The notes beneath the pieces are model-generated. The model did not search any database. It was not told where the DNA came from and worked only from the letters and a program-made list of their open reading frames with translations. From the NCBI GenBank assembly GCA_951640165.1, contig OX621234.1, positions 6,329,001-6,393,000 of the forward strand: a DNA stretch of 64,000 nt. Direction: 5' to 3'. This stretch comes from Pseudoips prasinana. Its lineage: Eukaryota > Arthropoda > Insecta > Lepidoptera > Nolidae. This document shows positions 9,376 to 58,383 of the stretch, piece after piece (within the stretch, counting starts at the first letter, position 1; every line of letters starts with the position of its first letter). Position numbers and translations under genes: made by a program.

Positions 9376-10208
9376 TTAACGTGTTCTTAAATTAAGACAG
9401 TTTCTCCACGATTCACTAACAAGCCAGGGATTGCTTTCACGACTATTGTCCATCTTCAACCACGAGAGACATGGAACGTGGAGTTCTTTTGTGATATTCA
9501 TGCAATTATTGCTGCTAAATTCATCAGATCCTGATTTTTTTCCAGAGAGCGTAACTTTCAGTCTTCCGAATGGCTTGATATCCTCACCATCATCAAAATC
9601 TTTGAAGCCAGTATGTTTTTCTATAATACCAAATTTGTGCAACTTGGAAGATGTTAGAGATGTTGTATAATCATAACTTGTTATTGTATCAAGTGATTGC
9701 ATTGGGGATTCATCAAGGTTCGAGTGCTCGATCTCTGCAGTTTTCTTTTTAACTAATTTGAAAGATGAGACTGCTTGCGTCATATCTGATTTAGTTTCTG
9801 TAACTTCTTTATGGCCCATCCACTTGTAAAGTACAACATAAGGATTTAAGAATGCTTTATCATCGTTTGAACTTATATCTGACTGCGCAAGAGACAGGTT
9901 ATTTCGTCTCTTGACTTGAGCACTAGTTTCACCGTTGTTCATCTTACGTGATACAGATGCAATATTGAATTCGTCTGGTGGCGACCATGACTTTAACTGA
10001 ACTTCTGTATCATTTAGCATCATATCTGTGTCAATTTGACCTGTTTGTTCAGTGTTACAAGAGAAGTACCTAGTTGTTTGCTTGGGAAACACATTTTCCG
10101 TGGATATGGGCACCGAAGTAGATTTTTGCTGCTTACATACACACATGTGGCTTCTTATAACCTTTTTTGTACTCATACAACCATAGTCACTGCAGTAGAT
10201 CTTGTTAT
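9376..10208 (-). CDS. Gene 1, exon 6 (last coding exon)
   Basis: C-terminal 277 residues of gene 1. On the minus strand a TTGTTTTAG acceptor precedes 10208. The frame enters in phase 1, reads NKIYCSDYGCMSTKKVIRSH and stops at 9376. It aligns with exon 6 of gene 2 (57398-58383): KADACGCTGDKKG, KSDMTQAVSSFKLVKKK beside KSDLTHTTSGFKFTKKK, and RLKVTLSGKKSGSDEF beside GIKFSIGGKGSGTKGL. It differs from gene 2 in a longer Ser/Thr-rich middle and in lacking the LADAVRYYTLMHPE segment. The function is unknown. The acceptor and the paralogy make the exon call firm. Confidence 0.8.
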
Positions 10209-10508
10209 CTAAAACAATATTAGCTAAAATAAAATTAGATGATCTGTAATAAAATTGTTGGTGATCAGCGCTCTATACTTTGGATGAGGTTGACACGTCA
10301 GTATTTTTCTTTAAAGGGGATTTTATATTACTGCAGTTTAAGCGATAGTTATTTCGAAAGCAAGATTATAGGTAGAAAGCTATTGCGTTATCAATAGAGT
10401 TTTTGGAACGAACTTTCTTATCGCGCGTTGTGAAAGGGGGCTAGACGGAAAAAATTGTTACGAAAAGTTGTCACGACACTTTTTGCAGCTGTGCGGCGTG
10501 CGCATGTT

Positions 10509-10552
<44 letters not shown>

Positions 10553-10762
10553 AGGAAGCAAGCCAGATATTCATCATTTCATTTCTATTTCGCATTGAAC
10601 AGTGTGATGTCGCGACGATTATTTTTGTTGAGTGTATACAGGTTTATTGTTCATAATAAATAATAAGAAATAACTTCGTTCCATCCATTTTTTTTATGTT
10701 AAACATACAAGGAGCTATTTAAATAACTATTGAATTATAACAAACAAATACTAGTTATTTAC
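10209..10762 (-). other. Gene 1 intron 5, with a (TC)n microsatellite
   Basis: Intron between exons 5 and 6. It is bounded on the minus strand by a GTAAATAA donor next to 10763 and a TTTTAG acceptor before 10208. It contains an uninterrupted TC dinucleotide run at about 10515-10549. Confidence 0.7.
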
Positions 10763-10828
10763 CTTCTTCCTGTGAGGCATACATTGGTGGGTTGACGCTC
10801 GATACATTACTAGGAGATTTTTTATGAC
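10763..10828 (-). CDS. Gene 1, exon 5 (66-nt mini exon)
   Basis: Minus-strand acceptor TGTATTTTCAG before 10828 and donor GAAGAAG/GTAAATAA after 10763. It enters and leaves in phase 1 and encodes about 22 residues, including SPSNVSSVNPPMYASQEE. The matching exon of gene 2 (56746-57153) is 408 nt and contains TPSSHDPPMPKQT at the equivalent place, so the two have diverged six-fold in length. It is too short to be found as a stand-alone ORF. It is called from splice signals, phase and paralogy. Confidence 0.7.
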
Positions 10829-10902
10829 CTGAAAATACATTATCAAGACATAGTTTTAGCAATATTCAACTAACTTACTTTCGATGTAAATTTTTACGTT
10901 TA

Positions 10903-11226
10903 GAGCGCCTTTACACTAGCGTTTGTCCAGTGTAGGCGTTCGATAAATGGATGCGCAGCGCAGAAGCTGCGACTACGCGGCGCTGGCGCTGTGTTACTGC
11001 GGCGTCAGTGCAAGGGTAAATGAATTTGCTGCGTTAGGTTACTACGGACTAACTACGGAGTACAACGCAATTGTGTGACATCTGCGCCGCGTTAGCGTAG
11101 CGCTCAATCGACTCCAGAGGAAACGCCGCAACAAGCCGACGCCTACGCCGCGTTGTCGCGGCCTCTGCGCTGCGCATACGTTTATCGAACGCCTACGCTG
11201 GACAAACGCTAGTGTGAAGAGAGCCC
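10903..11226. mobile_element. MITE with ~60-bp inverted ends and TA duplication
   Basis: The left end begins GAGCGCCTTTACACTAGCG and the right end is its near complement (CGCTAGTGTGAAGAGAGCCC). The match continues for about 60 bp through GTTTGTCCAG, AGGCGTTCGAT and GCGCAGCGCAG. TA flanks both sides (10901-10902 and 11227-11228). It sits in intron 4 of gene 1 and ends 15 bp from the exon 4 donor. It has no coding capacity and is much more GC-rich than the surroundings. Confidence 0.85.
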
Positions 11227-11241
11227 TACATTTATTTTTAC

Positions 11242-11631
11242 CTTCCAAAGCAAGGCCCCTCATAATAGCAGATGGATTTAACTTTGATAGGGCTGTATAA
11301 ATAGGCGGCTTCCATTTTACACATTTGGACTTCTCTGATTGTTCTAAGTTATGGTCTATTATGATAGGTTCACAACAACATGGTCTATGTGTTGTGTCAG
11401 TGGTCGCTTCCCGTGTTATTACGGCGGGAGACACTAAATGTTTCACTTTGTTGTGTGTAGTAATCTGACAGACCTTGTTTTTTGTCTCTTTTCTTTTTAC
11501 AGAGCACATGGTAAATTTATTCTCGCAAGGTGGTGTGACGCTTAAACTTGTGGAAGCTACTTGAGGATCTCCTGACTTCTTGCCTCTTCTACAAAATTTT
11601 ATTCCCATGCACCTAGTTTTTTGTCTAAAAC
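11242..11631 (-). CDS. Gene 1, exon 4
   Basis: Minus-strand acceptor TTTCACAG before 11631 and donor GGAAG/GTAAAA after 11242; phase 1 in, phase 1 out, 390 nt. It reads FRQKTRCMGIKFCRRGKK, then TTDTTHRPCCCEPI and ends near IMRGLALEG. It aligns with gene 2 exon 4 (55098-55493), which reads FSHKLEPRGMKICTRGKR, ATDTTADRPCCCAVP and MGMRG. The basic GxKxCxRGKK patch and the Cys triplet are the most conserved parts. An apparent open frame continuing to 11042 runs into the MITE and is not part of the gene. Confidence 0.8.
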
Positions 11632-11876: not shown

Positions 11877-12026
11877 ATTTTTCAGATCGCGTCGATTTTA
11901 TAACTGAAGACCTCTCAGCTCCGGCGTCTAGTTCAATAAATGCTTTTGGTTTCGCTGCACAGCATTTACAAGAGTCATCAGTTATGATTTGTTTCTTATT
12001 TTCGTGACCTGTTGATGACTCACACA
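11877..12026 (-). CDS. Gene 1, exon 3 (tentative)
   Basis: Minus-strand acceptor TATTTTTCCAG before 12026 and donor GAAAAAT/GTGAGC after 11877; 150 nt, phase 1 on both sides, so it joins exon 2 and exon 4 without breaking the frame. It encodes CESSTGHENKKQI, then a Cys cluster DDSCKCCAAKPKAF and ERSSVIKSTRSEK. The gene 2 counterpart is uncertain (see 54443). The splice signals and phase support it; there is no homology proof. Confidence 0.55.
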
Positions 12027-12247: not shown

Positions 12248-12891
12248 CTTCCATCTGACACGTATCCATCTGAGGTCCAATCAAACGTGGAATTAATTCC
12301 GACTTAACATTAGCAATATCACGATCATGGCCAATAAAACTATTACTAAGCTTAATAGGTGAACATAAAAGATTTTCAGAAGTATCGGTACCCACTTCAT
12401 GAGGTTTAGACTTCACCATTTGTATTTCGTTTTTAGACATATGCGTCATACAATTCTTGTCATTGTTTTCATCCTCATTGTTATAATCGTTTTGACAATT
12501 TGAATTTCCTGTAGTTGCTATTTCTTTTCTACATTTGGAATTGTTTGTTTTTTCCGATAATGCAAAACACTCTAAGGAATCGACTTTATTTCCGGAATAT
12601 TCTTCATCGCAGTCATCAGAAGAGGGAACTATCAAAAATATTGAGGAAGCTGATAACTTCGCTTCTATAAGTAACTTGTTGATTATTGTGACTAAATCAC
12701 GTTTACTTTTCAAATGGTTTGAGATGACATCTGTTTCTCGGCTTTTAAAAAACTGTTCTTTTTGTTCTTGTGGTTGCTTACTTCTATTTGGTAAAGATAA
12801 TTGACAAATCGTAAAATCATTGTGATTAAAGACAAAATCGTCATTTTGGTGCGTTTCGTAGAAGTTTATGATCTTGTCGTTGATACTAGTG
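12248..12891 (-). CDS. Gene 1, exon 2
   Basis: Minus-strand acceptor TTTTTTTCAG before 12891 and donor GATGGAAG/GTATTT after 12248; 644 nt, entering in phase 2 and leaving in phase 1. It reads TSINDKIINFYETHQND and later SSIFLIVPSSDDCDEEYSG. Gene 2 exon 2 (46597-46988) has SSIYLLVSSDDTGYSADDV in the same place and the same phases. The frame runs into a stop only at 12237-12239, beyond the donor, so that stop is probably intronic. If the donor is unused, the protein ends here. The exon is acidic and Ser/Asn-rich. Confidence 0.7.
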
Positions 12892-13377
12892 CTGAAAAAA
12901 AAGTAATATTTGAATTCTTAAGTCTTATTACGTAGGTATTATTAATCTGTTGACGAGGGAAAATATGCGATTCTTGCCAGGCGTTTGGCAAGATTATTTT
13001 CCGTTCCATTTTGCGTTCTTTGGTCAATGAGTAGTCGGAAGTAGGTACTTCTTTATTCTAGAAGACATTCCAGGTATTAGCATAAATAATGTTAATGATA
13101 TGATTCTGCTTATAGAGAAGGGAGCGAAAGTCAACAACACTGAGTGGCATAATATCGCAAATGTAAATGTAACCACGTTCCATCAGATGGGCCGTATGAT
13201 TATTTCGCTTATTAAAGAAAGTAACAGTAAAATCATAGAGGGCTCCAATAAAACTAAACTATGAAATAGAAAGCCATCTGAAAATAATGAAACAATATGT
13301 ATCCAGAAGATAGAAAATAATTTAAGAGCTCAGGATTTATTTTCAATACTAGGAAAAGGTTACGATGTGTCATTTAA
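12892..13377 (+). pseudogene. Unrecognised open stretch in gene 1 intron 1 (plus strand)
   Basis: From 13031 to 13260 a plus-strand frame reads YFFILEDIPGISINNVNDMI, LLIEKGAKVNNTEWHN and IISLIKESNSKIIEG. After one TGA it stays open to the edge of the Helitron at 13378 (ICIQKIENNLRAQDLFSILG). The composition looks protein-like. I do not recognise the protein. It may be a relic of a mobile element ORF or of a retrocopy. The rest of the interval is plain AT-rich intron. Confidence 0.3.
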
Positions 13378-13616
13378 TCTATATATATAAAAATCAATGC
13401 CACTTTTCGTTGTCAAGTTATAACTCTACAACGCCTTTACCGATTTGGCAAATTTTGGTCTTGAATTATTCGTGGAAGTCCAGGGAAGGTTTGTACGTAG
13501 AGAAAATTAAAAAAAAGTCTTGAAAAAGTGTAAAATAAACATCTTTCTATACTCCCATATACAAACAATTTGTACTAATACTTAAAAGCGTAGCGAAGCA
13601 CGTACCGGGCCGCTAG
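13378..13616 (+). mobile_element. Short non-autonomous Helitron
   Basis: It starts TCTATATATATAAAAATC directly after an A and ends GGGCCGCTAG directly before a T, as expected for Helitron insertion between A and T with 5' TC and 3' CTRR ends. The body is near-identical in its first half to 52126-52394 (AACGCCTTTACCGATTTGGC, AGTCCAGGGAAGGTTTGTAC). It has no coding capacity. Confidence 0.8.
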
Positions 13617-18951: not shown

Positions 18952-21900
18952 CTGCTTGTGGTGTCTATGTCAATTTCATTTGATGCTTGTATTTTCATAT
19001 CAGTTTTGAAAATATAATTTGTCTCCGGATAGTATAAATAATGTGCAAACTCTGAATCAGTGCTATTTGTAAAAGACGTTTCACTAATATTATTTAAGCA
19101 TTCACTTGATGTTGTAGATAGACTTAATGATGTTTCACTCTTTATTATAACAATTGATTTAATACTGCTAGATACTGATAAAAGACCCGATGTGTCATAA
19201 AATCTTGAAGATTTATGAAAGTTTCTATTCTTATTGTGGTATTTATTTTCATTATTATTCGACCAACGTTTATCAGAATTTGAGGCGTTAGGATCACAGC
19301 TTATAAATCTATTTATTTTAGCAGATGTTGGATCATCAAACTCGTATATTTTGTATATATTCTCCGATTTATATTTTTTCATTGTGTTCAAACGTGAAAT
19401 ACTTTTAGTATATGATATTTTACTGTAATTTCTATTTCTGATTGGCAAACTATGCTCCGAATTATTTGAATAAGTTGGGATCAAGGTACTTTCAAAAGAA
19501 AGTGTAGGTATACCAATAGCTTGTCCAATAGTAACTTTTATACCTTCATTATCAGTGACGACTCCCGGTTTTGGTTTTGGTAAACATTCATCAGGACAAG
19601 GACAATATTCCGATAAATCTAGTGATGTGACTCTAATTTTAACATAACTGTGTTTAAATTTTATTTTCTTTTTATCACAGCCACAGGCACGTTCACAAGT
19701 TTTTTTAGCTTCATCTTCATATGCTTCTGCAGCGGCCCCTACTTTTTTAGTTTTTGTTTTTATTTTTCCTCTTTTTTCAGATGGTGTTGGTTCAAGTGGT
19801 AATCCAGCTTCAGCTCTAACTTTCTTTACTAAAGCCTTTTCTGATTCGGTTTTACCTAAAGGTAACGGCAAACCAGCTTCAGCAAGTCCTCTTAAGATCC
19901 TTTCCTTTTCTTCTGGTCTTTTTCCTGTGAGAGGAGTGAATAATCCATCTGCTTTTGCTTTACGAACTACCTCTTTTTCCGATCGTGTTTTAGCTGGAGG
20001 AGGTACACCCAATTCAGTTCTTATTTTATGTATTAATGATTTTTCTGATGGTGTTTTACCTTCTGGCAAAGGTAAACCAGCTTGGGCTAAACCTCTTAAA
20101 ATTTTTTCTTTTTGATCTGGCGTTTTACCATCTAAAGGAGTAAGTAACCCAGCAGCTTTTGCTTTGCGTAATTTCTCTGATGGTATTACTGTGGGTCCTA
20201 ATTCAGCTTTAATTTTTGATATAAGTGCTTTTTCGGATGCTGTCCTTCCTTCAGGAAGTGGAAGACCTAAGTCCGCCTGGGCCCGTAATTTTTTTTCTTT
20301 GTCTTCTGGAGACATGCCTTCTAAAGGTTTAACTACGCCAGCAGCTACTCCTCTGTCGTATTTTTCTCTCATTGACGGAGTTTTTGGTTCAGGTGGTAGA
20401 CCAAATTCTTTACGAATCTTATCGGCTATATTTCTTTCGGATTCTGTACTACTTTCGGGTAGTGCTTGGCCATTTTTAATGTAGTCTTTTATAATTTTTT
20501 CCTTCTCTTCTGGAGTTTTGCCTTTTAAAGACGGCAGTAATGTTTTCTTAAGCTTCTCAGATTTTCCTTGTTCAGCCTTTATTTTTTTAATCATTGCTTT
20601 CTCAGAAGCTGTCCTTCCTTCTGGGAGAGGGATTCCAGCAGCAGCCAAAGCCTTCAAAATTTTTTCTTTTTCTGAGGGTGTTTTACCTTCCAGTGGTGTT
20701 ATGATACCTGCCGCGTATGCTTTGCTCATTTTTTCTTTTAAAGATGCTGTTTTTGGTTCTGGGGGTAATCCCATTTCATTCCGTATCTTTTTTATTAGAG
20801 ATTTTTCAGATGACGTTTTACCTTCAGGAAGGGGCATTCCTGACTTAATTAATCCCTTCAAAATTTTTTCTTTTTGTTCCGGAGTCTTGCCTTCTAAAGG
20901 TGTCATAAAACCACCAGCTTTTGCTATTCTTGCTTTCTCGGATGGTGTTTTAGGCTTAACAGCTTTTAGTCTTTTAATTAATGATTTCTCTGTAGGTGTT
21001 CGACCTTCAGGTAAAGGTAAACCTGCTTCCTGAAGGTTTTTCAATATTTTCTCTTTTTCTGATGGTGTTTTACCTTCTAAAGGTGTAATCAGACCAGCAG
21101 CTAGAGCCTTATTGTATTTCCCTTTTAATGACGGTGTCGTTGGTTCGGGAGGCAATCCCATCTCATTTCTGACTCGATTTATCAATTTTTGTTCAGATTC
21201 AGTTTTTGCTTCGGGAAATGGGAGACCAGCCTTCGCTAGGTTTCTGAGTATATTTTCTTTTCGTTCTGGAGATTTATCCCCTAATGGAGTCAACATGCCA
21301 GCAGCTTTTGCATGTTTGAATTTTTCTGACATAGTTTTTCCTTTTAGCGGTGATACACTAGGTTCAGACGTCAGATTTTTTATAATTTCTTTTTCCGATG
21401 GAGTTTTACCTTCTGCTATCGGTAGCCCTGCAGCCAACATATTTCTAAGAATTTTTTCTTTTTGTGACGGTGATTTTCCTTCTAAAGGGGTAATGAGTCC
21501 TGCAATTTTGCCTCTTCTCAATCTTTCTGACGGTGATGGTGTAACGAATCCTGCAGATTTTTTAATGTTCTCTATCAAAGCTCTTTCTGATGGTGACCTT
21601 CCAGCAGGTAGAGGAAGACCAGCTGCTACTCTTCCTCTTAATATCTTTTCTTTCTTTTCTGGCGTCTTGCCTTCTAATGGTGTTAAAAGCCCTGCAATTT
21701 TAGCGTGACGTACTTTTTCAGACGGGCTCGCTTCAGGTACTCCAAATTCCGATTTGACATGTTTAATCAACGATTTTTCTGAGGCTGTTTTTCCTTCCGG
21801 TAAAGGAAATCCAGCTTTGACTAATTTTTTTAAAATGCTTGCTTTTTGTTCGGGCGTTTTGCCTTCCAAAGGCGTCAATAGTCCCGCTGCTTTAACTTTT

Positions 21901-24900
21901 TGCACCATATCAGTTGTTATTGATGGTAGTACGCCCTTGGATGCCTTTTCAGTTTTCACTTTAGCAATCAAAGATTTCTCTGATGGCGTTCGTCCTTCGG
22001 GTAAAGAAATTCCTAAGTCAGCTAAACCACGTAGTATCTTTTCTTTTTCTTTAGGGGACTTTCCTTCTAATGGTTGCAAAATACCTGCTTTAGCCGCTTT
22101 CGCATGTCTATATCTCATATCTGAAGTCTTTGGTTCAGGTGGTAGGGCTAACTCTTTTCGAACCTTGTCTATTAATTTCTTCTCAGATTCTGTCTTACCT
22201 TCTGGTAAAGGAATACCTTGCGATGCAAGACCTCTCAATATTTTTTCCTTTTGTTCAGGAGTTTTTCCTTCGAATGGTGTTAAGAGCCCTGCTGCTTTAG
22301 CTCTACGCAGTTCTGAGGGTGCTAAAAAAGAATACATTGGACCAGTTTTTACTTTGGCTATTAGGGCCTTTTCTGAAGGTGTTTTGCCTTCTGGTAAAGG
22401 TATGCCCATACTAAGTAAACCTTTTAATATATTTTCTTTTTGCTGTGGAGTTTTTCCTTCAAGTGGCGTTAATAATCCGGCTGCCTTAGCTTTTCGCATT
22501 TTTTCAGACATTTTGACTGATGGTAAAGGTTCTGCTTTTACTTTAGCTATTAGCGATTTTTCGGAAGGTGTGCGACCTTCTGGCAAGGGAATGCCCATTT
22601 TGGCTAAGCCACGTAAAATGTGCTGTTTTTGTTGCGGTGTTTTACCCTCTAGTGGCTGTAAAAAACCAGCGTGAGCCGCTTGAGCATATTTATCCCTCAT
22701 ATCTGGAGTCTTAGGTTCAGGAGGTAGACCAAGATCAGCCCGGACCTTGTCGATTAATTTCTTTTCTGATGGTGTTTTACCTTCTGGAAGTGGAATACCA
22801 TGCATTGCGAGGCCTCTTAAAATGTTCTCTTTCTTGGCAGGAGTTTTACCCTCTAAGGGCGTTATAAATCCTGCAGCTTTAGCCTTTTTAATTTTTTCAG
22901 ATGGGGTTAATATTTCCAGTGGTGTTTTAGCTTTAATTTTAGCTATCAGAGATTTTTCTGAAGCTGTTCTTCCCTCAGGCAATGGTATACCCATATTGGC
23001 TAAGCCATTTAGTATTCTTTCTTTTTCTTTTGGAGTCTTGCCTTCAAGTGGCTCTAAAATTCCAGCATTGGCCGCCTTAATATGTTTTTGTCTCATGTCC
23101 TCAGTCTTAGGTTCTGGTGGCAAACCTAAATCTGCACGAACCTTGTCAATAAGTTTTTTTTGCGACGTTGTTTTAGCTTCTGGAAGAGGTAAACCATGCA
23201 CCGCAAGTCCTTTTAATATTTTTTCTTTTTGCTCGGGATTTTTTCCATCCAATGGAGTTAAAAATCCAGCTTCTTTAGCACGACGCAGTCTCTCTGAGGG
23301 TGCTAAAGCTTTTTTAAGTTTAGGTTTTATCGTACTTATGAGTGCTTTTTCTGAAGGCGTTCTTCCTTCAGGCAGTGGTATTCCTATATCTGCCAAACCC
23401 TGTAAGATTTTTTCTTTTTCCTTTGGCGTTTTACCTTCCAACGGTTGCAGTAAGCCGGCTTCGGCAGCCTTAGCGTATTTATCTTTCATTTCTGGAGTCT
23501 TAGGCTCAGGAGGTAGACCGAGATCAGCACGAACCTTATCAATTAATTTCTTTTCAGATGCTGATTTTCCTTCCGGAAGTGGAATACCATGCATTGCGAG
23601 TCCTTTCAATATTTTTTCTTTTTGTTTGGGTGTTTTTCCTTCCAATGGTGTTAATAGTCCTGCGGCCTTAGCTCTGCGCATTTTTTCAGACATTTTTATT
23701 GGAGGAGATGGTTCTGCTTTTATTTTAGCTATAAGAGATTTTTCTGAAGGCGTTCGTCCTTCTGGCAAAGGAATCCCCAAGTTAGCTAAGCCTCGTAATA
23801 TTTGTTGCTTTTGTTTAGGTGTTTTTCCTTCTAATGGCTGTAAAAATCCCGCATCGGCCGCATTAGCATATTTATCTTTCATTTCTGGAGTCTTAGGTTC
23901 AGGAGGTAGACCTAGATCCGCACGAACCTTATCAATTAATTTTTTTTCAGATGTTGTTTTTCCTTCTGGAAGTGGAATACCGTGCATTGCGAGACCTCTC
24001 AAAATGTTTTCTTTCTTTTCAGGAGTTTTGCCTTCCAAAGGTGTAATCAATCCTGCAGCTTTAGCTCTTTTCATTTTTTCAGATGGGGTTAATATTTCTA
24101 AAGGCTTTTCAATCTTTGCTTTAATTTTAGCTACCAGGGATTTTTCTGAAGCTGTTCTTCCCTCAGGCAATGGTATACCCATGTTGGCTAAGCCATTTAG
24201 TATTCTTTCTTTTTCTTTTGGAGTCTTGCCTTCAAGTGGTTCTAAAAGTCCAGCATTGGCCGCCTTGATATGTTTTTGCCTCATGTCCTCAGTCTTAGGT
24301 TCTGGTGGCAAACCTAAATCTGCACGAAGCTTATCAATAAGATTTTTATCAGACGGTGTTTTACCTTCCGGAAGAGGCAGACCATGCGTGGCTAGTCCTT
24401 TCAATATTTTTTCTTTTTGCTCGGGAGTTTTTCCTTTGAGTGGCGTTAACAATCCTGCTGCCTTAGCTTGTCGAAGTTTTTCCGAAGGAGCTAACGGTTT
24501 CTCTCGTTTTGGTCTTATAGAAGCTATAAGTGCTTTCTCTGAAGGTGTTCGTCCTACAGGCAATGGTATTCCCATGTCTGCCAAACCCTGTAAGATTGTT
24601 TCTTTTTCCTTTGGCGTTTTACCTTCCAACGGTTGCAATAAGCCGGCTTCGGCAGCCGTAGCGTAATTATCTTTCATTTCTGGAGTCGTAGGCTCAGGAG
24701 GTAGGCCGAGATCAGCACGAACCTTATCAATTAATTTCTTTTCAGATACTGATTTTCCTTCCGGAAGTGGAATACCGTGCATTGCTAGTCCTTTCAATAT
24801 GTTTTCTTTTTGTTTGGGGGTTTTGCCTTCTAGCGGTGTTAGTAGCCCTGTGGTCTTAGCTCTGCGCATTTTTTCAGACATTTTTATTGGTGGAGATGGT

Positions 24901-27900
24901 TCTGCTTTAATTTTAGCTATAAGAGATTTTTCTGAAGGGGTTCGCCCTTCTGGTAAAGGAATACCCAAGTTGGCTAAGCCTCGTAATATTTGTTGTTTTT
25001 GTTGAGGTGTTTTGCCTTCTAATGGCTGTAAAAAACCAGCATCGGCGGCTTTAGCATATTTATCTTTCATTTCTGGAGTTTTAGGTTCAGGAGGTAGACC
25101 GAGATCAGCACGAACCTTATCAGTTAATTTCTTTTCAGATGCTGTTTTTCCTTCTGGAAGTGGAATACCATACATCGCGAGACCTCTCAAAATGTTTTCT
25201 TTCTTTTCGGGAGTTTTGCCCTCCAAAGGTGTAATTAATCCTGCCGCTTTAGCTTTTTTCATTTTTTCAGGTGGAGTTAATATCTCTAAGGGCTTTTCAA
25301 TCTTTGCTTTAATTTTAGCTATCAGAGATTTTTCAGAAGGCGTTCTTCCTTCTGGCAATGGTATATCCATGCTAGCTAAGCCGTTAAGTATATTTTCTTT
25401 TTCTTTGGGCGTCTTTCCTTCCAGTGGCTCCAAAAATCCAGCATTAGCAGCCTTGATATGTTTCTGTTTCATAACTTCAGTCTTAGGTTCAGGTGGTAAG
25501 CCTAGATCTGCACGAACCTTAGCAATAAGATTTTTATCAGATGGTGTTTTACCTTCTGGAAGAGGCAGACCATGCGTGGCTAGTCCTTTCAATATTTTTT
25601 CTTTTTGCTCGGGAGTTTTTCCTTTGAGGGGCGTTAAAAATCCTGCTGCCTTGGCTCGTCGTAGTTTTTCCGAAGGAGCTAACGGTTTCTCTCGTTTTGG
25701 TCTTATAGAAGCTATAAGTGCTTTCTCTGAAGGTGTTCGTCCTACAGGCAATGGTATTCCCATGTCTACCAAACCCTGCAAAATTATTTCTTTTTGTTTT
25801 GGTGTTTTCCCTTCTAGTGGCTGCAATAAGCCAGCGTCAGCAGCTCTAGCGTGTTTATCTCTCATATCAGGACTATCTGGCTCAGGTGGCAATGCTAGGT
25901 CGAACCGAACCTTGAGAATCAGGTTTTTTTCAGATTCCGTTTTACCTTCTGGAAGGGGAATACCATGCATTGCAAGTCCTTTCAAAATGTTTTCTTTTTC
26001 TTTGGGTGATTTACCGGTAAGTGGCGTTAAGAATCCCGCTGCTTTTGCACGTCGCAATTTTTCCGAAGGAGCTAAAGGTTTCTCAAGTTGAGGTTTTATA
26101 GTGGCTATGAGTGCCTTTTCAGAAGGAGTTCTTCCTTCAGGCAATGGTATTCCCATGTCTGCCAAACCCTGTAAGATTCTTTCTTTTTCCTTTGGCGTTT
26201 TACCTTCCAACGGCTGCAAAAAACCGGCTTCAGCAGCCTTAGCATGTTTATCTTTCATATCTGGGGTATTGGGCTCGGGGGGCAGTGCTAGATCAGCACG
26301 AATCTTACCAATTAACTTTTTTTCTGATTCCGTTTTGCCTTCTGGCAGAGGAATCCCATGCATGGCAAGTCCTTTTAATATGTTTTCTTTTTGTTTAGGT
26401 GTTTTTCCTTCAAGTGGTGTTAATAACCCAGCGGCTTTAGCTCTGCGCATTTTTTCAGACATTTTTATTGGTGGAGACGGTTCCGCTTTTATTCTAGCTA
26501 CGAGAGATTTTTCTGAAGGTGTTCGTCCTTCTGGTAAAGGAATACCCATATCAGCTAAGCCACGTAATATTTGTTGTTTTTGTAGAGGTGTTTTACCTTC
26601 TAGTGGCTGTAAAAAACCAGCGTCAGCTGCCTTAGCATATTTATCTCTCATATCTGGAGTCTTAGGTTCAGGTGGTAGGCCAAGATCAGCACGTACCTTG
26701 TCAATTAACTTCTTTTCTGATGTCGATTTGCCCTCCGGCAATGGAATACCATGCATTGCAAGACCTCTTAAAATGTTTTCTTTCTTTTCAGGAGTTTTTC
26801 CTTCCAAAGGCGTTATAAATCCAGCAGCTTTGGCTTTTTTCATTTTTTCAGACGGAGTCAATATTTCTAAAGGTTTTTCCGCTTTAGCTTTGATTTTAGC
26901 AATCAGAGATTTTTCTGAAGCAGTTCTTCCTTCAGGCAGAGGTATACCCATATTTGCTAGGCCGTTTAAAATCTTTTCCTTTTCTTTTGGCGTTTTCCCT
27001 TCTAATGGTTGTAATAATCCAGCATTGGCTGCTTTTACATGTCTTTCTCTCATTGCTGGAGTTTGGGGTTCCGGAGGTAATCCTAGTTCGGCGCGTACCT
27101 TTTCAATAAGTTTTTTTTCCGATGCTGTTTTTCCCTCAGGGAGGGGAAGACCATTATTTGCAAGTCCTTTTAATATTTTTTCTTGTGTTTGTGGTGGTTT
27201 TCCTGTAAGAGAAGTAAGGAGTCCTGCATCTCTTGCTCTTCGCAGTTTTTCTGAGGGTGCCAGTATGGAAGGTTCATGACTTTTTATTTTCGCTATAAGG
27301 GATTTCTCTGAAGGAGTTCGCCCTTCAGGCAATGGTATACCCATATTACGTAAGGATTGTAATATTTTCTGTTTCTGTTGGGGAGTTTTACCTTCTAATG
27401 GTTGTAATATTCCAGCATTTGCTGCTTTCTCATGTTTATTTCGCATTTTTGATGTTCGTGGTTCAGGAGGAAGACCAAGATCCAAGCGTACTTTAACAAT
27501 GAGCTTTTTCTCAGACGGTGTTTTTCCTTCTGGAAGTGGAATCCCTTGCATAGCTAGTCCTCTTAGTATTTTTTCTTTCTTTTCGTTAGTCTTTCCTTCA
27601 AGAGGTGTAATAAAGCCTCCAGCTTTTGCCTTTCTCATTTTCTCTGATGGCGTTATCACTTCAAGAGGAGTTCCGGTTGTAGCTTTTATTTTGTCTATAA
27701 GAGATTTCTCTGAAGGAGTTCGTCCTTCAGGCAATGGTATACCAATATTTGCTAAACCTTGGAGGATCTTCTCTTTTTGTGACTGACTTTTACCTTCCAA
27801 AGGTTGTATCAACCCAGCATTAGCAGCGTGAGCATATTTTTTTCTCATGTCTTCATTTGTTGGTTCGGGAGGTAATCCAAGGTCAGCACGTACTTTGTCA

Positions 27901-29066
27901 AGTAATTTTCTTACAGAAGGTGTTTTTCCTTCTGGCAATGGAAGATTGTTCATAGCTAGACCTCTTAAAATCTTTTCTTGTTGTTCTGGAGATTTTCCTT
28001 CAATCGGGGTTAAAATTCCAGCTTCTTGAGCTTTACGTAGTTTTTCTGATGATATGCCTGGTGGTATTCCTGTTTCTGCCTTAACTTTATCAATTAATAC
28101 TTTTTCAGATAGAGTTCTGCCTTCGGGTAACGGAATGCCCATTTTCAATTGAGCTTTTAGAATGTTCTCTTTTTGCGGGTTTGTTTTTCCTTCTAAAGGT
28201 GTTATTATACCTGCAGCTTCAGCTTTTTTCATCCTTAACTTTTCGGCAGCATTCTTGGGTGTCGGGGGAAGACCTAAGTCTTTTCTTACTTTGTCGATTA
28301 ATGATTTTTCAGACGTTGTTCTTCCCTCTGGTAAAGGGACACCAGACATGGCAAGATTTCTCAAAATAATTTCTTTTTCGGCAGGCGATTTGCCTTCCAT
28401 TTCTTTCAAAGCTTTCTTTAATTCTTCTTTCTGTACCTTTCCTGTATCCACTCCAACAGAAGCTAATGATTTCTGTATCTTTCCTAGTTCCCTCTCTTCT
28501 CTACCTAGGTGACTACAAAGTATACATTTGCATCCATCGCAATTTTTCTTTTTATAGCAGTCATAAAGACCTTTCATAACTTCGAACATTGCATCAGAGT
28601 TGCATGAACAACAGCAAGTTTCGTCTTGAGAGAAAATTTGACACCGGTAAATTTTACATTTCTTATCTTTCGGGTAGTTAAACGGATTCAAACATTCAGC
28701 GAACCGATGTTCTGACACGAGACAGACGACGTATTTTGAGTGATAAGGATATTCTTGCTTTGGAATTGCATTAGAGCTTTTGGTACGAAATCGATGAATA
28801 TCGTGCTTTTTAATATCAGGAAAACTAGTGAATATCCGATGGTTTAAATCTGTATTTTTTCCTTTGGGGTCATTATTATTAGGTAAATCAATTAAACTTT
28901 GTTGAATTTCACCATGGTTATACATTTTAACTAGTTTACGATTTTTATTTTTTTTCTTATGAACAATTATGCTTATATTTTTAACACCTGTGCAAGGGCC
29001 TTCATACTGATCTCCATACGCCGGGTAATAATTTATATAATTGTCAATACATCCAGATTTTTCCAT
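18952..29066 (-). CDS. Gene 1, exon 1: giant tandem-repeat protein
   Basis: A single uninterrupted 10.1 kb exon of about 3371 codons. The ATG at 29066 (MEKSGCIDNYINYY) is preferred over an upstream TTG because gene 2 starts MEEARIFYNN at the same point. Residues ~1-220 are unique: GVKNISIIVHKKKNKNRK and a Cys-rich patch (KIYRCQIFSQDETCCCSC). Residues ~222-3095 are about 44 tandem 65-residue modules. The tail has CERACGCDKKKIKFKHSYVK, GIKVTIGQAIGIPTL and SIVIIKSETSLSLSTTSS. It leaves in phase 2 at a perfect donor, AAGCAG/GTAAGA; the TAA ending the frame lies in that donor. There is no signal peptide or membrane segment, and no enzyme motif. The modules look helical with Pro/Gly turns, suggesting a long structural or scaffold protein (inference). 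Automatic pipelines may call such proteins titin-like. Joined to exons 2-6 the product is about 4065 residues. Confidence 0.85.
19780..28400 (-). repeat. Coding tandem array, ~44 modules of ~197 bp
   Basis: Within exon 1 of gene 1. The module consensus includes GKTPEQKEKILKGLA, HGIPLPEG(K/R)TPSEKKLI, KVRADLGLPPEP and KAADAGFLQPLE. Modules alternate between two types (…EGK…VRADLGLPPEP and …EGR…IKA-variable-PSEK). Higher-order blocks of six modules recur: the PLEILTPSEK marker lies at about 22901, 24083 and 25271 (1182 and 1188 bp apart) and again at 26852 (eight modules on). Modules at both edges are more divergent than central ones. Confidence 0.9.
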
Positions 29067-39769: not shown

Positions 39770-39771
39770 TA

Positions 39772-44409: not shown

Positions 44410-44632
44410 CATATCGTCATATCATATCAATCGAAAGACGTCCACAGCTGGACAGAGGCCTTTCCAAGTTTTGCCACAATAGTTAGTCCTGCGCTGCCCG
44501 CACCCAGCGGCTTCCCGCGACCCTTGCAAGATCGTCGGTCCACCTTGTAGGGGTCTGCCCTCACTGCGTCTTCCGGTTCGTGGTCACCACCCAAGAACCT
44601 GTCTGCCTCCTTCCTCAACAGCTCATCTCGTT
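44410..44632 (-). pseudogene. RTE-type LINE 3' fragment
   Basis: On the minus strand it carries the end block CCAGCTGTGGACGTCTTTCG and degraded codons for the KWRW-to-GRPPTRWTDD region (GGACCGACGATCTTGCAAG, ACCACGAACCGGAAGACGC). It lies immediately upstream of gene 2, less than 100 bp from its start codon. Confidence 0.65.
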
Positions 44633-44712: not shown

Positions 44713-46274
44713 ATGGAAGAAGCACGTATATTTTATAATAACGAAGACAATAGTCCTTGTAAGGACACAGAAAACGTGAGCTTTATCATTCGTAAGAAGA
44801 AGAAGAATAATAGAAAACCAATTAAAGATCCTAGATATGATGAACATTTACAAATAGAATTTCACTTATTCAATAGTCCTATAACGAATATGAAGGAATC
44901 TAAAGACGAAGTGTACATGAGTATGCCGGATATAAATAAAGCAAATACAAAACCTCAACAATTCACAAATAAGAATTACACAAAGGGTAGTTGGAGAGTT
45001 TACAAATGTTATCTAAACTCTCAAGAACAGACTTGTCCATGCACATCTAATACCATGTTAAAATTAATGAAGAACATTTACAATAGCTATCAAAAGAAAT
45101 TAGCAAGGAAAGCAGTTTCTAAAAACAAATTTTGTAATACAAACACAGCAGGTTCAAATAAAATTATTGATGGTGATATATTAGAGGATACTGAGAAAAT
45201 GAATCGAGAGTTATCCACAGTGATTTCATTGCTCCATGAAATCAGAACTGAACTAGGAATTGAATCACCTACAAGAGTTTTAACAAAATCTGACCTAGTC
45301 CATAAAGTCAAACAATACTTCATACGCAAAACAAATTCGGAAAAGAAAGAGATACTTAAGAAACTTGATGTTATACCATCATTTTTACGCAAAGCAGCCT
45401 CAGAAAGATCATTCCTAGTAAAACTGAGTTCCAGAGCTTGTTTTCCAAAAGACTCTCATAAGAGCAACGGTCTGAAAAAAACTAGCACTACGGAATATAA
45501 TGAATTTGAAAATAATATGAATGGGAAAAAGATTAAAGATATTACCAAAACAAGAACTTTTGATCGGAGTGCTTATGTGAAAATTCGAGATTCTTTATCA
45601 GATACAACAAGTGGTCACTTTAGCTCGCATATAAATTTACAAAATATAAACCACGGTTTTACTGCCTGTACTGAAGTTACGATTGGAAGAGCAGGTGTAC
45701 CTACTTTTCCGGTAGAACCAAGTACAATCTCGAATGAAATTGAAGTTGATACAAAAGGGAGTACACCAATCTGTGGTAGTTTAGAAATTAACAAAAAAAG
45801 TCATTTGAAAGGCCGTAAAAGTGCCACATGTGTTTTAAATTTACGTAATAATCCAATAAAAAGTTCAGTAAGTCTTACCTATCCCCAGAATGATAAAATA
45901 GATAGTGTCACAAAGTGCCTACACGACACTCCACTACCAGTTGCGATGGGCGATGATTGTGATGATGATTATAGTCTATTATATTATGTACCTTTTGATT
46001 TGTATGAATATGTGAATCCTGTTTCACTTTGCTATATTTCAAATACCAGTACTGATCTCGATTCTCGAAATAGTTTTGATTCTGTTGTGGTGATCAAAAG
46101 TGAATCATCCTTAAGTTTATCAACAAATTCTAGCAAAACTCGACGTACTACTAGTGAGTTCTGTTTTACAAACATTGAGTCAGATACTACTCTTTATCTG
46201 GGTTACACTGCTTCAAACGATGGAACCGATGAGAAATTAAGCAATAGTACCAGTGGAGACCGTAAAAAACCGAG
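44713..46274 (+). CDS. Gene 2, exon 1
   Basis: 520 codons from ATG (MEEARIFYNNEDNSPC), paralogous to exon 1 of gene 1. Matched pairs are NVSFIIRKKKKNNRK with NISIIVHKKKNKNRK; RVYKCYLNSQEQTCPC with KIYRCQIFSQDETCCC; SAYVKIRDS with HSYVKIRVT; VTIGRAGVPTF with VTIGQAIGIPT; and VVVIKSESSLSLSTNSS with IVIIKSETSLSLSTTSS. At residues ~190-240, NSEKKEILKKLDVIPSFLRK and AASERSFLVKL are one decayed copy of the gene 1 module. It leaves in phase 2 at CCGAG/GTACAT; the frame would otherwise stop four codons on (46287). An acceptor-like ATGAACAG 18 bp upstream suggests a 5' non-coding exon. Function unknown. Confidence 0.8.
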
Positions 46275-46596: not shown

Positions 46597-46988
46597 TGAA
46601 GTCATTGATTGCTGCAACATTCAGTTCCATAATCCAAGAGAGAAAAAATATAAAAGAAAAGACAAATTAGCAAACTCAGATCAGGTCACAGTACTTCGAA
46701 TGTCAGAAATGAAATTGAGTATACAACAGGCCCAATCAAAAGACAATGAGTATCCAGATAATTATCCAGACAATGAGTATGCAAAAACTGACACAAAAAA
46801 AATTAATAATAAATATGATATCGGAGAAATAGTCGATGAGCCTCTTATAAACGCCGAATCACCCACGAATTCATCTATATATCTCTTGGTATCTTCTGAT
46901 GATACAGGGTACTCTGCAGATGATGTCATATGCATTGGAATATCAGAAAACTTAAGCAACTGGAAACGTCATAATATAGGAGACTCTT
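46597..46988 (+). CDS. Gene 2, exon 2
   Basis: 392 nt, phase 2 in and phase 1 out, donor GACTCTT/GTAAGT. It reads EVIDCCNIQFHNPREKKYK and SSIYLLVSSDDTGYSADDV, the latter matching gene 1 exon 2. Without the donor the frame would run to a stop at 47023, adding 11 residues. Polar and acidic with a repeated NEYPDNYPDNEY stretch. Confidence 0.7.
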
Positions 46989-50700: not shown

Positions 50701-50713
50701 AGAGTGAAAGTTA

Positions 50714-51660: not shown

Positions 51661-52125
51661 AATATTTTTTGTAGGTCATGTTTAGTTATTCAATTAGTTT
51701 TTTTTGCACAGCATTCATACTTCTGGTATGCATTCAGTTAAATAGTGGAGTTACGTAGTGTGCTGAAAAACTATACAGATGTGCATTTAAAAATATCCCT
51801 ATATTTAATAAGGCCATCAATACTAAAAGAGACTGGTTGTTTTTTATATTATATCCAACCTTAATTTTGAATCTACACGTTGTTGGAGATAGTCATATTT
51901 AACTGCATATGTATTCTTATAGCGACTACGGTAAGGTGTTCTACCTAAAATTGGGCAACCACTGCTTGGAACTCTCACAACTCCTAAAAGATAAAAATAG
52001 ACATGACAGGAGGTAACAAACAGATAAATTGATCAACTATATCAAGAATAGTAAAGGTATAAGCTAAGGAAAGTTGAAATTTGGATAGGCTTGTTGCATG
52101 TTATTATTTGACAGCATTATCCATA
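51661..52125. other. Gene 2 intron 2, no feature recognised
   Basis: AT-rich intronic sequence between the CR1 tail and the Helitron; nothing recognised. Confidence 0.35.
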
Positions 52126-52394
52126 TCTATATATATAAAAATCAATGCCACTTTTCGTTGTAATGTTATAACTCAACAACGCCTTTACCGATTTGGCTAA
52201 TTTTGGTCTTGAATTACTCGTGAAAGTCCAGGGAAGGTTTGTACGTAGAGAAAATTTAAAAAAAGTCTTGAAAAAGTGTAAAATCAACATCTTTTAGCAA
52301 TTAAAAATATTTTTTGTTTGAATAAATGAACTTAATAATCATTTTTTTTTATTACTATGCCTTATACGTAGCGAAGCACGTACAGGGCCGCTAG
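52126..52394 (+). mobile_element. Short non-autonomous Helitron
   Basis: Same type as 13378-13616: 5' TCTATATATATAAAAATC after A, 3' GGGCCGCTAG before T, and a near-identical first 150 bp. The inner right half differs in length. Confidence 0.8.
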
Positions 52395-52912
52395 TTATTT
52401 ATATATTATTTACCATAGTTACGAATCGCAAAACATATTCAATACGTCCTGTACTTCTCTTCCTAAAACTATTTCTACTTATCGCCTTACTGTATACCAT
52501 TTTTTTTTTACGTGGTGGAAATGCCATTCGCACGTTGTGTAGGGCCCACCCACTAAAACCACCACGGTAGCCAGCCTCACAGCGCCTGTAGCGGGGGCTC
52601 TGGGTACTCGTGAACGATCTCACCAGTGCCCCCGCCGTACACTGAGTGTCTGAGACTCTCACCCGGGGACGGGAGGGGCCCGAATGCCTGCCATCACGCA
52701 CGAGCGCGTTTAGGCAACCTGAGCTACAGCAGGTTACCTCTTCCCGGGACCGCTTATACAAGACGAGTGGAGTGCCCTTCCTGCAAACGCCAGCGACCCC
52801 AGGGGCGGCGCCTAGCCGGGGAGAAGCCGGCTGGACGCCGCATACTCTCTCGCGCTGAGATTAGCTCCCAGCGCCGGCGCCGATGAAGCGGACATTAGCG
52901 TCAATGTCCAGT

Positions 52913-53551
52913 TCATCGGCGCCGTCTCGTTCTCCTACGGGAGGGATCGTTGCGCTCCCTCTCGCGCTCGGCGGCCTCCTTCTTGAGCATAACAGCTTCA
53001 CAGAAGGAGGCCACCACGTTCCATCCGGTTGTCGCCGTCAGCATGGCCGAAACCACTGCTGGCAGTGAGAGGTCCAATCCTATTTCAGCGACCAGGACTC
53101 GTCTCTCGGGGGCCCAAGCTGGGCACTCCTCGAGTGTATGTTGGGCCGAGTCCGGGCCGCCGCCACAATGGTGACACGTCGGTGTCGCCTCTCTACCTAT
53201 TCGACAAAGGTACTCACCGAAGCAGCCGTGTCCGGTGAGTATCTGTGTCAACCAGAAGGTTAGGCTGCCCCGTTTCCGGAGCAGCCATGCGTCAAACCAC
53301 GGCAGGACCGCACCGACAGAGCGTTGACGCAAGCCTCTCGGCAATTCAAGCCGCTCGCGCCAAATCTCTAAGGCCTGTCGGTGCGCGTCCCGCCGTACGT
53401 TTGTCCAGTCCGGTATTTGGCCCCCGGCATCCGAGCGGGCACGGACGAGATCGTAAACTCTCGCGTCCATGTCCGCCAGGATGTCCAGTGGCGGGAATCG
53501 TCCTAGTAAAGTCGCCGCCTCAAAGGAGATCGTCCGGTATCCACGGACCAC
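52913..53551 (-). pseudogene. R1-type LINE, ORF2 C-terminus
   Basis: About 212 residues: LPWFDAWLLRKRGSLTFWLT, QILTGHGCFGEYLCRIGRE and the zinc cluster CHHCGGGPDSAQHTLEECPA, then WAPERRVLVAEIG and a basic end. This CxxC..H..C cluster after TGHG.F..YL is typical of the C-terminus of R1-clade elements. It is in a different frame from the preceding RT part. Confidence 0.75.
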
Positions 53552-53590
53552 TCTGATGGAACCACCCGCTGCACGCTATTCAAAAGAGCT

Positions 53591-54060
53591 TCAAGTCAAG
53601 AGTCCAGAAGACCAGACGGGAGCGCCGTATAGGGCCATAGACCGGATAACCCCACAGTAGAGGCGGCGGACTTCTTCCCGGGGTCCCCCGAGGTTGGGCA
53701 GCAGACGCTGGAGTGCGCCCGTCGGTCCGCGAAGTCGGGGGACCAGCTGGACAAAGTGGGTGTCAAAAGCCCACCTACTGTCCAGCGTCAGCCCGAGGTA
53801 TTTGAGGGTTTGCCCAACTGGGACCGCCTCACCACACACCTGAATCCGCGTGCTGGAAGGTTCCCTGCCCCGACGGAGGCTGTGGAAACAAAGCGCCTCA
53901 GTTTTATGAGGCGCTACCTGAAGGCCGAGCCCGCGGACACTGCCGACGACACAGGCTACTCCCAGTTCGGCAAGCCGTGCCAAATCCGTGAAATTGCTCC
54001 CCCTGGCCAACACGAGAGTGTCATCTGCATAGCAAACGACATCTACGCCGAGGGGGAGCC
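53591..54060 (-). pseudogene. R1-type LINE, RT C-terminal part
   Basis: The frame begins near the truncation with VDVVCYADDTLVLARGSNFT (catalytic YADD) and continues APHKTEALCFHSL, LKYLGLTLDSRWAFDTHF and YCGVIRSMALYGAPVWSS. It is separated from the C-terminal part by a frameshift near 53560-53590. Confidence 0.8.
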
Positions 54061-54067
54061 TCGTTCT

Positions 54068-55097: not shown

Positions 55098-55493
55098 CTT
55101 TCTCACACAAACTAGAACCCCGTGGTATGAAAATATGTACAAGAGGAAAACGTATTGTCATGGAAGAAATTCCAAAAGAGGAGAAGGATCACAATATTGC
55201 AAATAAAAAGGGCCAATTACAACCTGTTCCTAATATGAATATACGAACAAAAGATAAGAAAAATCATAAGTATAAACAGATAAAAACAACTAACAAAGTG
55301 GTCCCTATTACGGTAAAAAAACATGTAGCAGCTACCGACACGACTGCTGATAGACCATGTTGTTGTGCTGTGCCAAAAACAGTTGCATCCCGCAAATTGA
55401 GTTGGAAACGTGTTCCTCACAATCAGAAATGTGTTGCAAACGTAGTTTCGCAAGTTATTACTCCTGCGTTACAGGATCAGATGGGTATGCGAG
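55098..55493 (+). CDS. Gene 2, exon 4
   Basis: Acceptor TATTTTAACAG and donor GCGAG/GTATTT; 396 nt, phase 1 in and out. It reads FSHKLEPRGMKICTRGKR, a long Lys-rich middle (IRTKDKKNHKYKQIKTTNK) and VAATDTTADRPCCCAVPKTV, aligned with gene 1 exon 4. The open frame continues on both sides into introns. Basic overall. Confidence 0.8.
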
Positions 55494-55624: not shown

Positions 55625-56030
55625 GATTCCACCATTATTCTTATCTTTCTGTGGACGACACGCTTCTCGAAGTAGTTCTGGGTGCATTAGGGCATAGTAT
55701 CTGACTGCATCAGCTAGGCTTACATCAACATCAGGAATACGCTTAGGTCGTGGCTTCTTTTCCTTAGTAAATTTAAACCCTGATGTTGTATGCGTTAAAT
55801 CCGATGTCAGTTTTGTATCAATTTTGTTATCATCCCAATATTAAGCAAAATAGTCTTCTTCAGGTTTTTGTGATTCAGGTTCAAAAGAGGGACTTTCTTT
55901 CTTTATCTCTCTATTCCTTTTCTTTTTTACTCATTTTCTCATGACATTCGCAATCCTTCAATCCTTTATTAACGGTACCATCTGTATAATCAACCTGACC
56001 CTGATTAATAGTTGCTTCAGTATAAATGGC
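55625..56030 (-). pseudogene. Inverted partial copy of gene 2 exon 6
   Basis: On the minus strand it closely matches about 57687-58078 of exon 6: CAGGTTGATTATACAGAT, AAAGGATTGAAGGATTGCGA, TCGGATTTAACGCATACAAC, TTCCTGATGTTGATGTAAG and GCTGATGCAGTCAGATACTA are shared. Frameshifting changes around 55900, a TAG and a TAA (in TTTTGCTTAATATTGG) destroy the frame. It is a relic of an additional family copy, lying antisense inside the gene's own intron. Confidence 0.85.
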
Positions 56031-56104
56031 AATAATAAGCTCTTGTTTGTTTGCTGAGTTTTACTCAAGTTAAATCAATAAATAAATAAAAACTTTCGGT
56101 GAAA

Positions 56105-56240
56105 AGCAAACCTGGAGGGTTATTTTATATAACCTTATAGGCAACGCTCTTGCGGCTTCTCTGGTGTTCTCTGGCGATCACTTACCATCAGGTGTCCCAG
56201 TGGCTCGTTTTCCTTGCTATCATATCAATTATATGCTTGC
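56105..56240. repeat. Dispersed lepidopteran repeat
   Basis: It contains CTTGCGGCTTCTCTGGTGTT and GATCACTTACCATCAGGTGT, followed by GGCTCGTTTTCC, a block I associate with common dispersed moth repeats. The class is not certain. Confidence 0.45.
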
Positions 56241-56539
56241 TATCATATAAATATGATTTATTACCGTATTTAATATAAGGATCCATTCAATTCTACTATA
56301 TTTTATGTTGTTTCCTTTAACGATTGCGATGGGTTTTCTCTAGTTTTGAGACTCGATATTGAAAATTATTTTTTGATTCGATAACCAATGGCTTTGAAAT
56401 GATCCCGTACGTACTTATCCAAATCGCTTATCATACAAACAAATTGAATTTGGTTCTATGTTTTTAAAACAGTATTTTTAGGATGAATATAATATACAAA
56501 TTAATAAACATAAAAATGTGTATTATGACCATCATACTG

Positions 56540-56660
56540 TCGCCAGCCCGACTTTCAAGCGTGGCAATGATGGCATGATAGCCCTCAAGACAACTCTATT
56601 GTGGAAATCTTTTAGGGAGAACTTTGTCCAGCAGTGGACGTTGTTTGGCTGACATCCAAT
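56540..56660 (+). repeat. RTE-type 3' tail
   Basis: It shares GCCAGCCCGACTTTCAAGCG and TTTGTCCAGCAGTGGACGTT, then GTTTGGCTGA, with the 3' end of the RTE fragment at 8521. The coding part is gone. Confidence 0.55.
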
Positions 56661-56745
56661 TATTGCCTACGTGTTTGTTTTATAAAAATAAATGTATTAT
56701 CTCCTCGTCGTTTATATTTAGATGATGATGTTGATTTTTTTTCAG

Positions 56746-57153
56746 GTCTATCACCGTACTTTTCCATATCACCTTGCCAAATACCTCCGTGTCACGGTAC
56801 TCCATCTAGCCACGACCCTCCTATGCCAAAACAGACGGCTATATCTGACTGTAGAGGGAGACCACTTAATCCTCATTTGGAGTGTGAACGTATCAACAGG
56901 AATCTAAGTCCAGTTAAGTTAACAGGGCAGTGGGTACCATGTCAACCAAAAACAGCTGCCAAAAATATTAACGTTAGTTTTCGTCCGGAGATCAAATTAC
57001 CACAAAAAATGAATGGAGGGTATAAACTTTGTTCAGAAATCATACAAACACTACCAGAGACAGTACCCTGTGTTAATATGCAATCCCAATGTGTTGGTGG
57101 AGTCCCTATAGAAGATAAAGGAAATGATCCAGCAGTGATAACCTTAGCAAAGG
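56746..57153 (+). CDS. Gene 2, exon 5
   Basis: Acceptor TTTTTTTTCAG and donor AAAGG/GTAAAT; 408 nt, phase 1 in and out. It reads LSPYFSISPCQIPPCHG, SSHDPPMPKQTAISDCRGRP, then a Cys-containing tail (TVPCVNMQSQCVGG). The matching exon of gene 1 is only 66 nt. The Pro/Cys-rich character suggests an extended segment. Confidence 0.75.
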
Positions 57154-57397
57154 GTAAATAATGTCTAATTTTATGTTTAACATTTATTCTTCGTGAATCT
57201 GTCAATCTGTTGTGCATCACCTCATATATAGCAATACTGTGGAACTCTGTAATTGGCTTATTATATTATTATGTTAGTGTATAATTAGGAATAGTACGGG
57301 GTTCAAAAAGCTGTCGAGTTTCCTAAATAAAAAAGTCTGCTAGACCAAATTGGTACTGATACAATTCTAATAAGAGAACTTACGACTTTTCTTTCAG
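57154..57397 (+). other. Gene 2 intron 5
   Basis: 244-nt intron, GTAAAT to TTTTCTTTCAG. Confidence 0.7.
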
Positions 57398-58383
57398 ACC
57401 ATTGTACCAAATGCTATGTTAAGGCTGACGCTTGTGGCTGTACGGGTGATAAGAAAGGGGTCAAACTTCGACCTTTGTGCCCTTGCGAAATGTACAAACC
57501 ACTTATATCCATGACAGAAATGGGACCCAAGAAAGGAACTAGATCTTTTGGTTGTGACCCTGGCTGTCCCTATTCTCGAGCAAATCGGGCAAAATTATGG
57601 TACGCCTCAGACCCAAAAGCAAGAGGGGATAAAATTATTCGACGATTAGGAGGAAGTTTATCAAGAATAAGAAAAGGTGGCGTAAATACTGAAGCAACTC
57701 AGGATCAGGTTGATTATACAGATAGTAACGTTAATAAAGGATTGAAGGATTGCGAATGTCATGAGAAACGAGTAAAAAATAATAAAGTTATATGCGAATG
57801 TCCCCCTTCTGAACCAGAACCACAAGAAAGTGAAGAAGCTGAAAATTATGAGCATGACTTTTCAGAATATTTTGCTTATTATTGGGATGACAACAAACTT
57901 GATGCAAAACTTAAATCGGATTTAACGCATACAACATCAGGGTTTAAATTTACTAAGAAAAAGAAGCCACGACCTGAGCCTATTCCTGATGTTGATGTAA
58001 GTCTAGCTGATGCAGTCAGATACTATACCCTAATGCACCCAGAAATACTTCGAGAGGTGTGTCCTCTACGGAAAGAAAACATTTCAAAGCCGTGTACATG
58101 TGACACTGGCGAATCATGGTTCAAATTTCCAAAGAAAACGAAAAGAGTTTTATTACCAGCCGAAGAAAACAATACTTACGAAGATGATATGAATGTTGAG
58201 CCTTTACTTAATCAGCCAGCTGAACAGTTTTATGAACAGCCTTCCGATCAGTTACCTATCCAACTCGAAGAAGACGAACCACGGGGGATAAAATTTTCTA
58301 TTGGAGGTAAAGGATCAGGCACCAAAGGTCTATCTGGTATATGTTGTTTCGATGTGACCCAATCTGTGACTTATCAAAATTAA
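57398..58383 (+). CDS. Gene 2, exon 6 (last coding exon)
   Basis: Phase 1 in; 327 residues to the TAA at 58381-58383. It begins HCTKCYVKADACGCTGDKKG, then PLCPCEMYKPLISMTE and a second Cys cluster (SFGCDPGCPYSRANRAKLWY). The middle is DCECHEKRV, ICECPPSEPEP, KSDLTHTTSGFKFTKKKKPR and DVSLADAVRYYTLMHPEILR. The end is RGIKFSIGGKGSGTKGLSG and ICCFDVTQ. It aligns with gene 1 exon 6 along its length. The repeated CxC and CxxC pairs suggest metal binding or disulfides (inference). Possibly the DUF4776-type part of the protein; unverified. Confidence 0.82.

Follow-up and report, generated by a model that had tools for sequence, protein, structure and literature searches.

We report two multi-exon genes that stand head to head in a 64,000-nucleotide stretch of the Pseudoips prasinana genome (contig OX621234.1, positions 6,329,001–6,393,000; assembly GCA_951640165.1), hereafter the window; coordinates of exons and other features are collected in Table 1. 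Gene 1, on the minus strand, opens within a run of 3401 stop-free codons; its ATG is at 29066, the run reaches a strong donor site at 18952, and a 6-kb intron separates this giant exon from the next. Spliced, it has six exons (phases 2, 1, 1, 1, 1) and a single terminal stop at 9376, and would encode 4065 amino acids (aa), ∼446 kDa. Its junctions were inspected in three frames; the weakest is the exon 6 acceptor, for which an in-frame alternative lies 15 bases upstream (first base 10223). Gene 2, on the plus strand, has only five supported exons (phases 2, 1, 1, 1; 1247 aa), not the six assigned to it in an earlier interpretation of this DNA from its letters alone (the sequence-only reading). 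Sequence comparison gives good support to the view that the two are old paralogues of one multi-exon gene.

Exons 1, 2, 4, and 6 carry this conclusion: each matches its own partner best, and together they give collinear significant similarity between the genes. Gene 2 has the same phases as are found after exons 1, 2, 4, and 5 of gene 1. Over five aligned blocks, all lying outside exons 3 and 5 and the repeat array described below, 206 of 638 aligned codons encode the same amino acid (∼32% identity), with mismatches at the three codon positions of 0.51, 0.40, and 0.57. Thus the proposal of head-to-head paralogues with matching phases stands, but that of six matching exons, with shared peptides in all except exon 3, holds only for exons 1, 2, 4, and 6. 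Gene 1 exon 5 and the penultimate exon of gene 2 correspond by place only; they are not alignable, and their similarity does not exceed chance. A counterpart of exon 3 was sought in the 8.1-kb second intron of gene 2, which contains LINE (long interspersed nuclear element) remnants, and no acceptable candidate was found there; since exon 3 is 150 bp and runs from phase 1 to phase 1, a gene can be without it and keep its frame. The opposite orientation fits the suggested inverted duplication of one ancestral gene, but ∼32% identity cannot tell this from a tandem duplication followed by inversion. We hold the gene models and the paralogy to be right with high confidence.

Most of gene 1 exon 1 is a repeat array of 2882 aa, whose 44 units share a single reading frame uninterrupted by stops. 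Cysteine is absent from the array, which has a pI (isoelectric point) of 9.9 and a net charge of +202 and is flanked by parts rich in cysteine (6.7% in the N part, 4.0% in the C part). Each unit consists of three mutually similar stretches of ∼22 aa (mean pair scores 32.7, 23.3, and 22.6 versus 17.5, 16.8, and 16.8 when shuffled). Unit lengths alternate between long and short, mostly 68 and 63 aa, and two higher-order periods are apparent, of two units (131 aa) and six units (about 395 aa). Across units 6–32, which the comparison by offset covers, amino acid identity reaches 0.81 at offset 6 (21 pairs), as against 0.58–0.59 at odd offsets. Over the same units the ratio of nonsynonymous to synonymous substitution (dN/dS) is 0.12–0.14 in frame (0.14 at offset 6), and becomes 1.28 and 2.69 at offset 6 in the shifted frames; most changes in the array fall at third codon positions (0.39, as against 0.16 and 0.10 at the others). 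By these substitution patterns, change in the array spares the protein. Units 8–30 are 0.81–0.95 identical to their best partner and the outer units 0.56–0.78; the outer units, and unit lengths from about unit 30 onward, depart from the pattern. This is what growth, or homogenisation, of the middle part of an array produces.

Gene 2 seems to keep a decayed trace of the same repeat in its exon 1. Compared with the array, aa 131–260 of its product score 105, where 200 shuffles gave a mean of 40.7 (standard deviation 6.0) and a maximum of 75. Of 43 two-unit windows the final one scores highest (100), two follow at 81 and 80, and the other 40 reach only 37–71, so that the trace appears most like the last two array units. 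The two genes, which have their exon plan and flanking parts in common but one decayed trace of a unit on one side and 44 units on the other, lend themselves to comparing the states before and after a giant repeat protein arose. We suggest that at least one array-type unit was present in the common ancestor, and that unequal exchange of two-unit and six-unit blocks lengthened the array of gene 1.

Several observations weigh against these models and this history. Splice scores, taken from a generic matrix, are poor for the acceptors of gene 1 exon 6 (–0.1) and exon 4 (0.9), and three donors score only 1.3–1.4. At offsets 2 and 4, synonymous divergence (about 1.5) is close to saturated. Units can be homogenised by gene conversion, and close partners are thus not necessarily recent copies; a profile built from the units matches the gene 2 trace weakly (best domain 3.9 bits); and these data do not separate array growth in gene 1 from array loss in gene 2.

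Four other explanations have to be set against ours. The 6-kb intron would also suit a giant exon that is a single-exon gene of its own, with exons 2–6 belonging to another, but the collinearity of exon 1 with the later exons in both genes leaves this improbable. The array might be a minisatellite that is open by chance, any role in the protein being confined to the flanking parts; unequal exchange generates higher-order structure in satellites, such as the two- and six-unit periods seen here, and gene 2 manages without a long array. Yet 44 units keep one frame with no stop, and dN/dS rises from 0.12–0.14 in frame to 1.28 and 2.69 out of it, and we give this explanation little credence. A long array could instead be ancestral, retained in gene 1 and lost in gene 2 except for its trace, which is correctly placed but decayed. 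Units 8–30 are, however, 81–95% identical to a partner, much more than the 32% at which the two genes agree; barring homogenisation by gene conversion, much of the present array therefore appears to postdate the gene split. We regard an ancestral long array as unlikely, though a serious candidate.

The array could also act as a molecular ruler, one block of two units or six units being matched to each subunit or repeat of a filament. Nebulin super-repeats act as such a ruler, and the alternation of unit lengths and the six-unit super-period would suit one here. Against it, unequal exchange alone also yields super-periods, the structural models described below show no confident regular packing, and the pattern breaks in the outer units and, for lengths, from about unit 30; such a function seems to us very doubtful. 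An equally long shot is its extension, an undescribed family of giant insect scaffolds made of an unlisted 22-aa helix-loop repeat (roughly GxPLPxGKTPxEKxxI); one paralogue would have turned into a filament ruler, with two- and six-unit blocks that match filament periodicities.

We prefer to see in gene 1 a large structural protein. AlphaFold2 predicts three helices per unit, one for each ∼22-aa stretch, with a pLDDT (predicted local distance difference test) of 82.9 for four units and 77.0 for two, and a pTM (predicted template modelling score) of 0.56 and 0.48; the models are of helices without confident overall packing, although the low pTM may stem from an alignment built on one array's own units. 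No membrane helix is obvious in either product (KD19 maximum 1.4 and 0.7), and both N-termini are, by reading of the sequence, charged and polar. A basic chain of short helices, low predicted packing, and cysteine-rich ends together suggest a flexible, multivalent scaffold. The gene 1 product would then be non-secreted. Its array, with about 130 short lysine-rich helices if the three per unit of the models are extrapolated, would form a long flexible string and bind a negatively charged polymer, either a cytoskeletal filament or a nucleic acid, many times over. The cysteine-rich N and C parts, common to gene 2, would anchor or cross-link it, and gene 2, having the anchoring parts only, would represent the family's short form. 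In our view the gene models, the paralogy, and a role as a structural, non-secreted scaffold are, taken as a whole, somewhat favoured; that the array itself binds an acidic polymer is a suggestion we hold to be less likely than not.

Both products look like large structural proteins unnamed in the domain libraries searched. Pfam gave no domain above its cut-off as a single stretch in either gene; neither spliced gene 2 nor gene 1, scanned in three separate parts, yielded anything credible. For the giant open reading frame (ORF), whole-sequence scores pass the cut-off for DUF4129 (1.2e-28), Ad_Cy_reg (1.4e-27), and DUF7167 (24.6 bits, cut-off 24.4), but no single stretch does so alone, and we read all three as summed chance-level matches along a repetitive protein. 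Searched singly at E 0.1, the 44 units list eight families: DUF4129 for 6 of them (best E 0.013) and seven others for one unit each. Nebulin, WH2/thymosin, and tau are absent from that list; we had considered beta-thymosin/WH2 on a presumed PLP-K-EK resemblance, and Pfam gives this identity for the array no support. SMRP1 (spermatid manchette) reached E 0.014, short of its cut-off, with the exon 4 ORF, one of nine queries; we build nothing on so weak a hint. DUF4776, named beforehand as a family to test, was not returned for spliced gene 2, the three gene 1 parts, nine exon ORFs, or the 44 units, in scans with E limits from 0.1 to 10 in which gene 1 was searched in parts and HMMER filters drop most very weak matches; it has no demonstrated feature in common with either gene, and a search for literature on it found none.

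A PDB sequence search gave no relative for four units, the unit profile hit a single insignificant tautomerase (E 0.13), gene 2 exon 1 hit seven S100-A9 sequences, all insignificant (E 0.28–0.58), and Foldseek yielded nothing usable for the predicted repeat, with no match at E 0.001 or better. Pattern scans of prokaryote genomes and of viral contigs, neither a likely place for an insect gene, picked out 102 and 56 stretches, and tblastn recognised no relative among them. Literature searches found nothing on giant repeat proteins of the Lepidoptera testis; on the sperm proteome and Bombyx giant repeat proteins they found only work unrelated by title; and among the matches listed on giant or longest exons none concerned this gene by title and abstract start. 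Annotated orthologues may well exist as uncharacterised proteins.

The closest sourced architecture is that of the S100 fused-type genes of vertebrate epidermis (filaggrin, filaggrin-2, repetin, and trichohyalin), which are clustered paralogues with a common exon plan and one large tandem-repeat exon (PMC2668185). Our genes, from an insect, have six and five exons, compared with three in that group, and Pfam finds no S100 or EF-hand family in the gene 1 pieces or gene 2; no likeness between the repeats was noticed, though no search aimed at one was made. Because the domains differ, the analogy is one of build and not of membership. Nebulin and titin, giant filament proteins built of repeats, resemble gene 1 in that short units form very long arrays with super-repeats, but the gene 1 array is without a credible relative by sequence in Pfam or PDB and without a Foldseek match at the threshold above, and its filament binding is putative. 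If expressed, gene 1 would provide a testable large structural protein without a domain entry. For annotation we add a warning: gene models drawn from ORFs could break gene 1 apart at the 6-kb intron, and the splitting of both genes by ORF-by-ORF annotation, as the sequence-only reading expected, is plausible.

Table 1. Features of the window, with positions counted from its first letter
Feature	Position	Strand	Remarks
Gene 1 exon 1, 10,115 bp	18952..29066	-	Cys-rich N part, 44-unit array, C part; phase 2 donor CAG/GTAAGA
Gene 1 repeat array	19749..28394	-	44 units of 55–68 aa (about 66), aa 225–3106
Gene 1 exon 2, 644 bp	12248..12891	-	Donor phase 1
Gene 1 exon 3, 150 bp	11877..12026	-	Phase 1 to phase 1
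Gene 1 exon 4, 390 bp	11242..11631	-	
Gene 1 exon 5, 66 bp	10763..10828	-	Located solely from splice signals and frame
Gene 1 exon 6 and stop	9376..10208	-	Weak acceptor
Gene 2 exon 1, 1562 bp	44713..46274	+	Decayed repeat remnant at aa 131–260
Gene 2 exon 2, 392 bp	46597..46988	+	Donor phase 1
Gene 2 homologue of gene 1 exon 4	55098..55493	+	
Gene 2 penultimate exon, 408 bp	56746..57153	+	In the position of gene 1 exon 5; similarity at chance level
Gene 2 last exon and stop	57398..58383	+	
Decayed inverted copy, part of gene 2 last exon	55644..56027	-	Inside a gene 2 intron; in-frame stop
Mariner copies (three)	35792–37090, 38477–39773, 58742–60030		Mutually 98.9–99.5% identical; long transposase ORFs
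Minisatellite, ∼126–137 bp unit	37556–37908, 40705–42120, 43557–44143		Between genes 1 and 2
LINE	3997–7959	+	ORF1 matches Pfam Baculo_FP and Baculo_FP_2nd; ORF2 endonuclease and reverse transcriptase
LINE remnants	48701–54067	-	Gene 2 second intron; by Pfam
Inverted arms, 2 × 80 bp	10909–11219		89% identical, ∼150 bp between; gene 1 intron 4, right after exon 4 donor
170-bp element	13377–13546, 52125–52294		95% identical; one copy in an intron of each gene
Inverted 189-bp element	8701–8889, 44421–44607		81% identical; past gene 1 end and shortly before gene 2 start

The window has a GC content of 31–41% in 30 of its 32 bins of 2 kb; Rfam and tRNA scans of it returned nothing. Its ORFs scanned with Pfam include mariner and LINE reverse-transcriptase matches. 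The mariner family call comes from one of the three copies, all of them probably young insertions; the third starts ∼360 bp downstream of the gene 2 stop. Two mariners and a minisatellite lie in the 15.6 kb between genes 1 and 2, so that a promoter common to both is unlikely. The minisatellite, of ∼128 bp, contains the string CCCTATTTTACGCCCTTAGGGGTGGAATTT and is reminiscent of a butterfly-genome repeat. Within the second intron of gene 2, reverse transcriptase and RNase H ORFs lie at 48701–50787 (minus strand); the region 52001–54000 is GC-rich (54%), and a reverse transcriptase match at 53594–54067, under the Pfam cut-off, appears R1-like by reading. The paired inverted arms in gene 1 intron 4 look like a miniature inverted-repeat transposable element. 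The decayed inverted copy inside gene 2 is 92% identical to the last exon in a block of 213 bp and 94% identical in another of 82 bp, and in the 213-bp block each codon position alike has 6 mismatches in 71.
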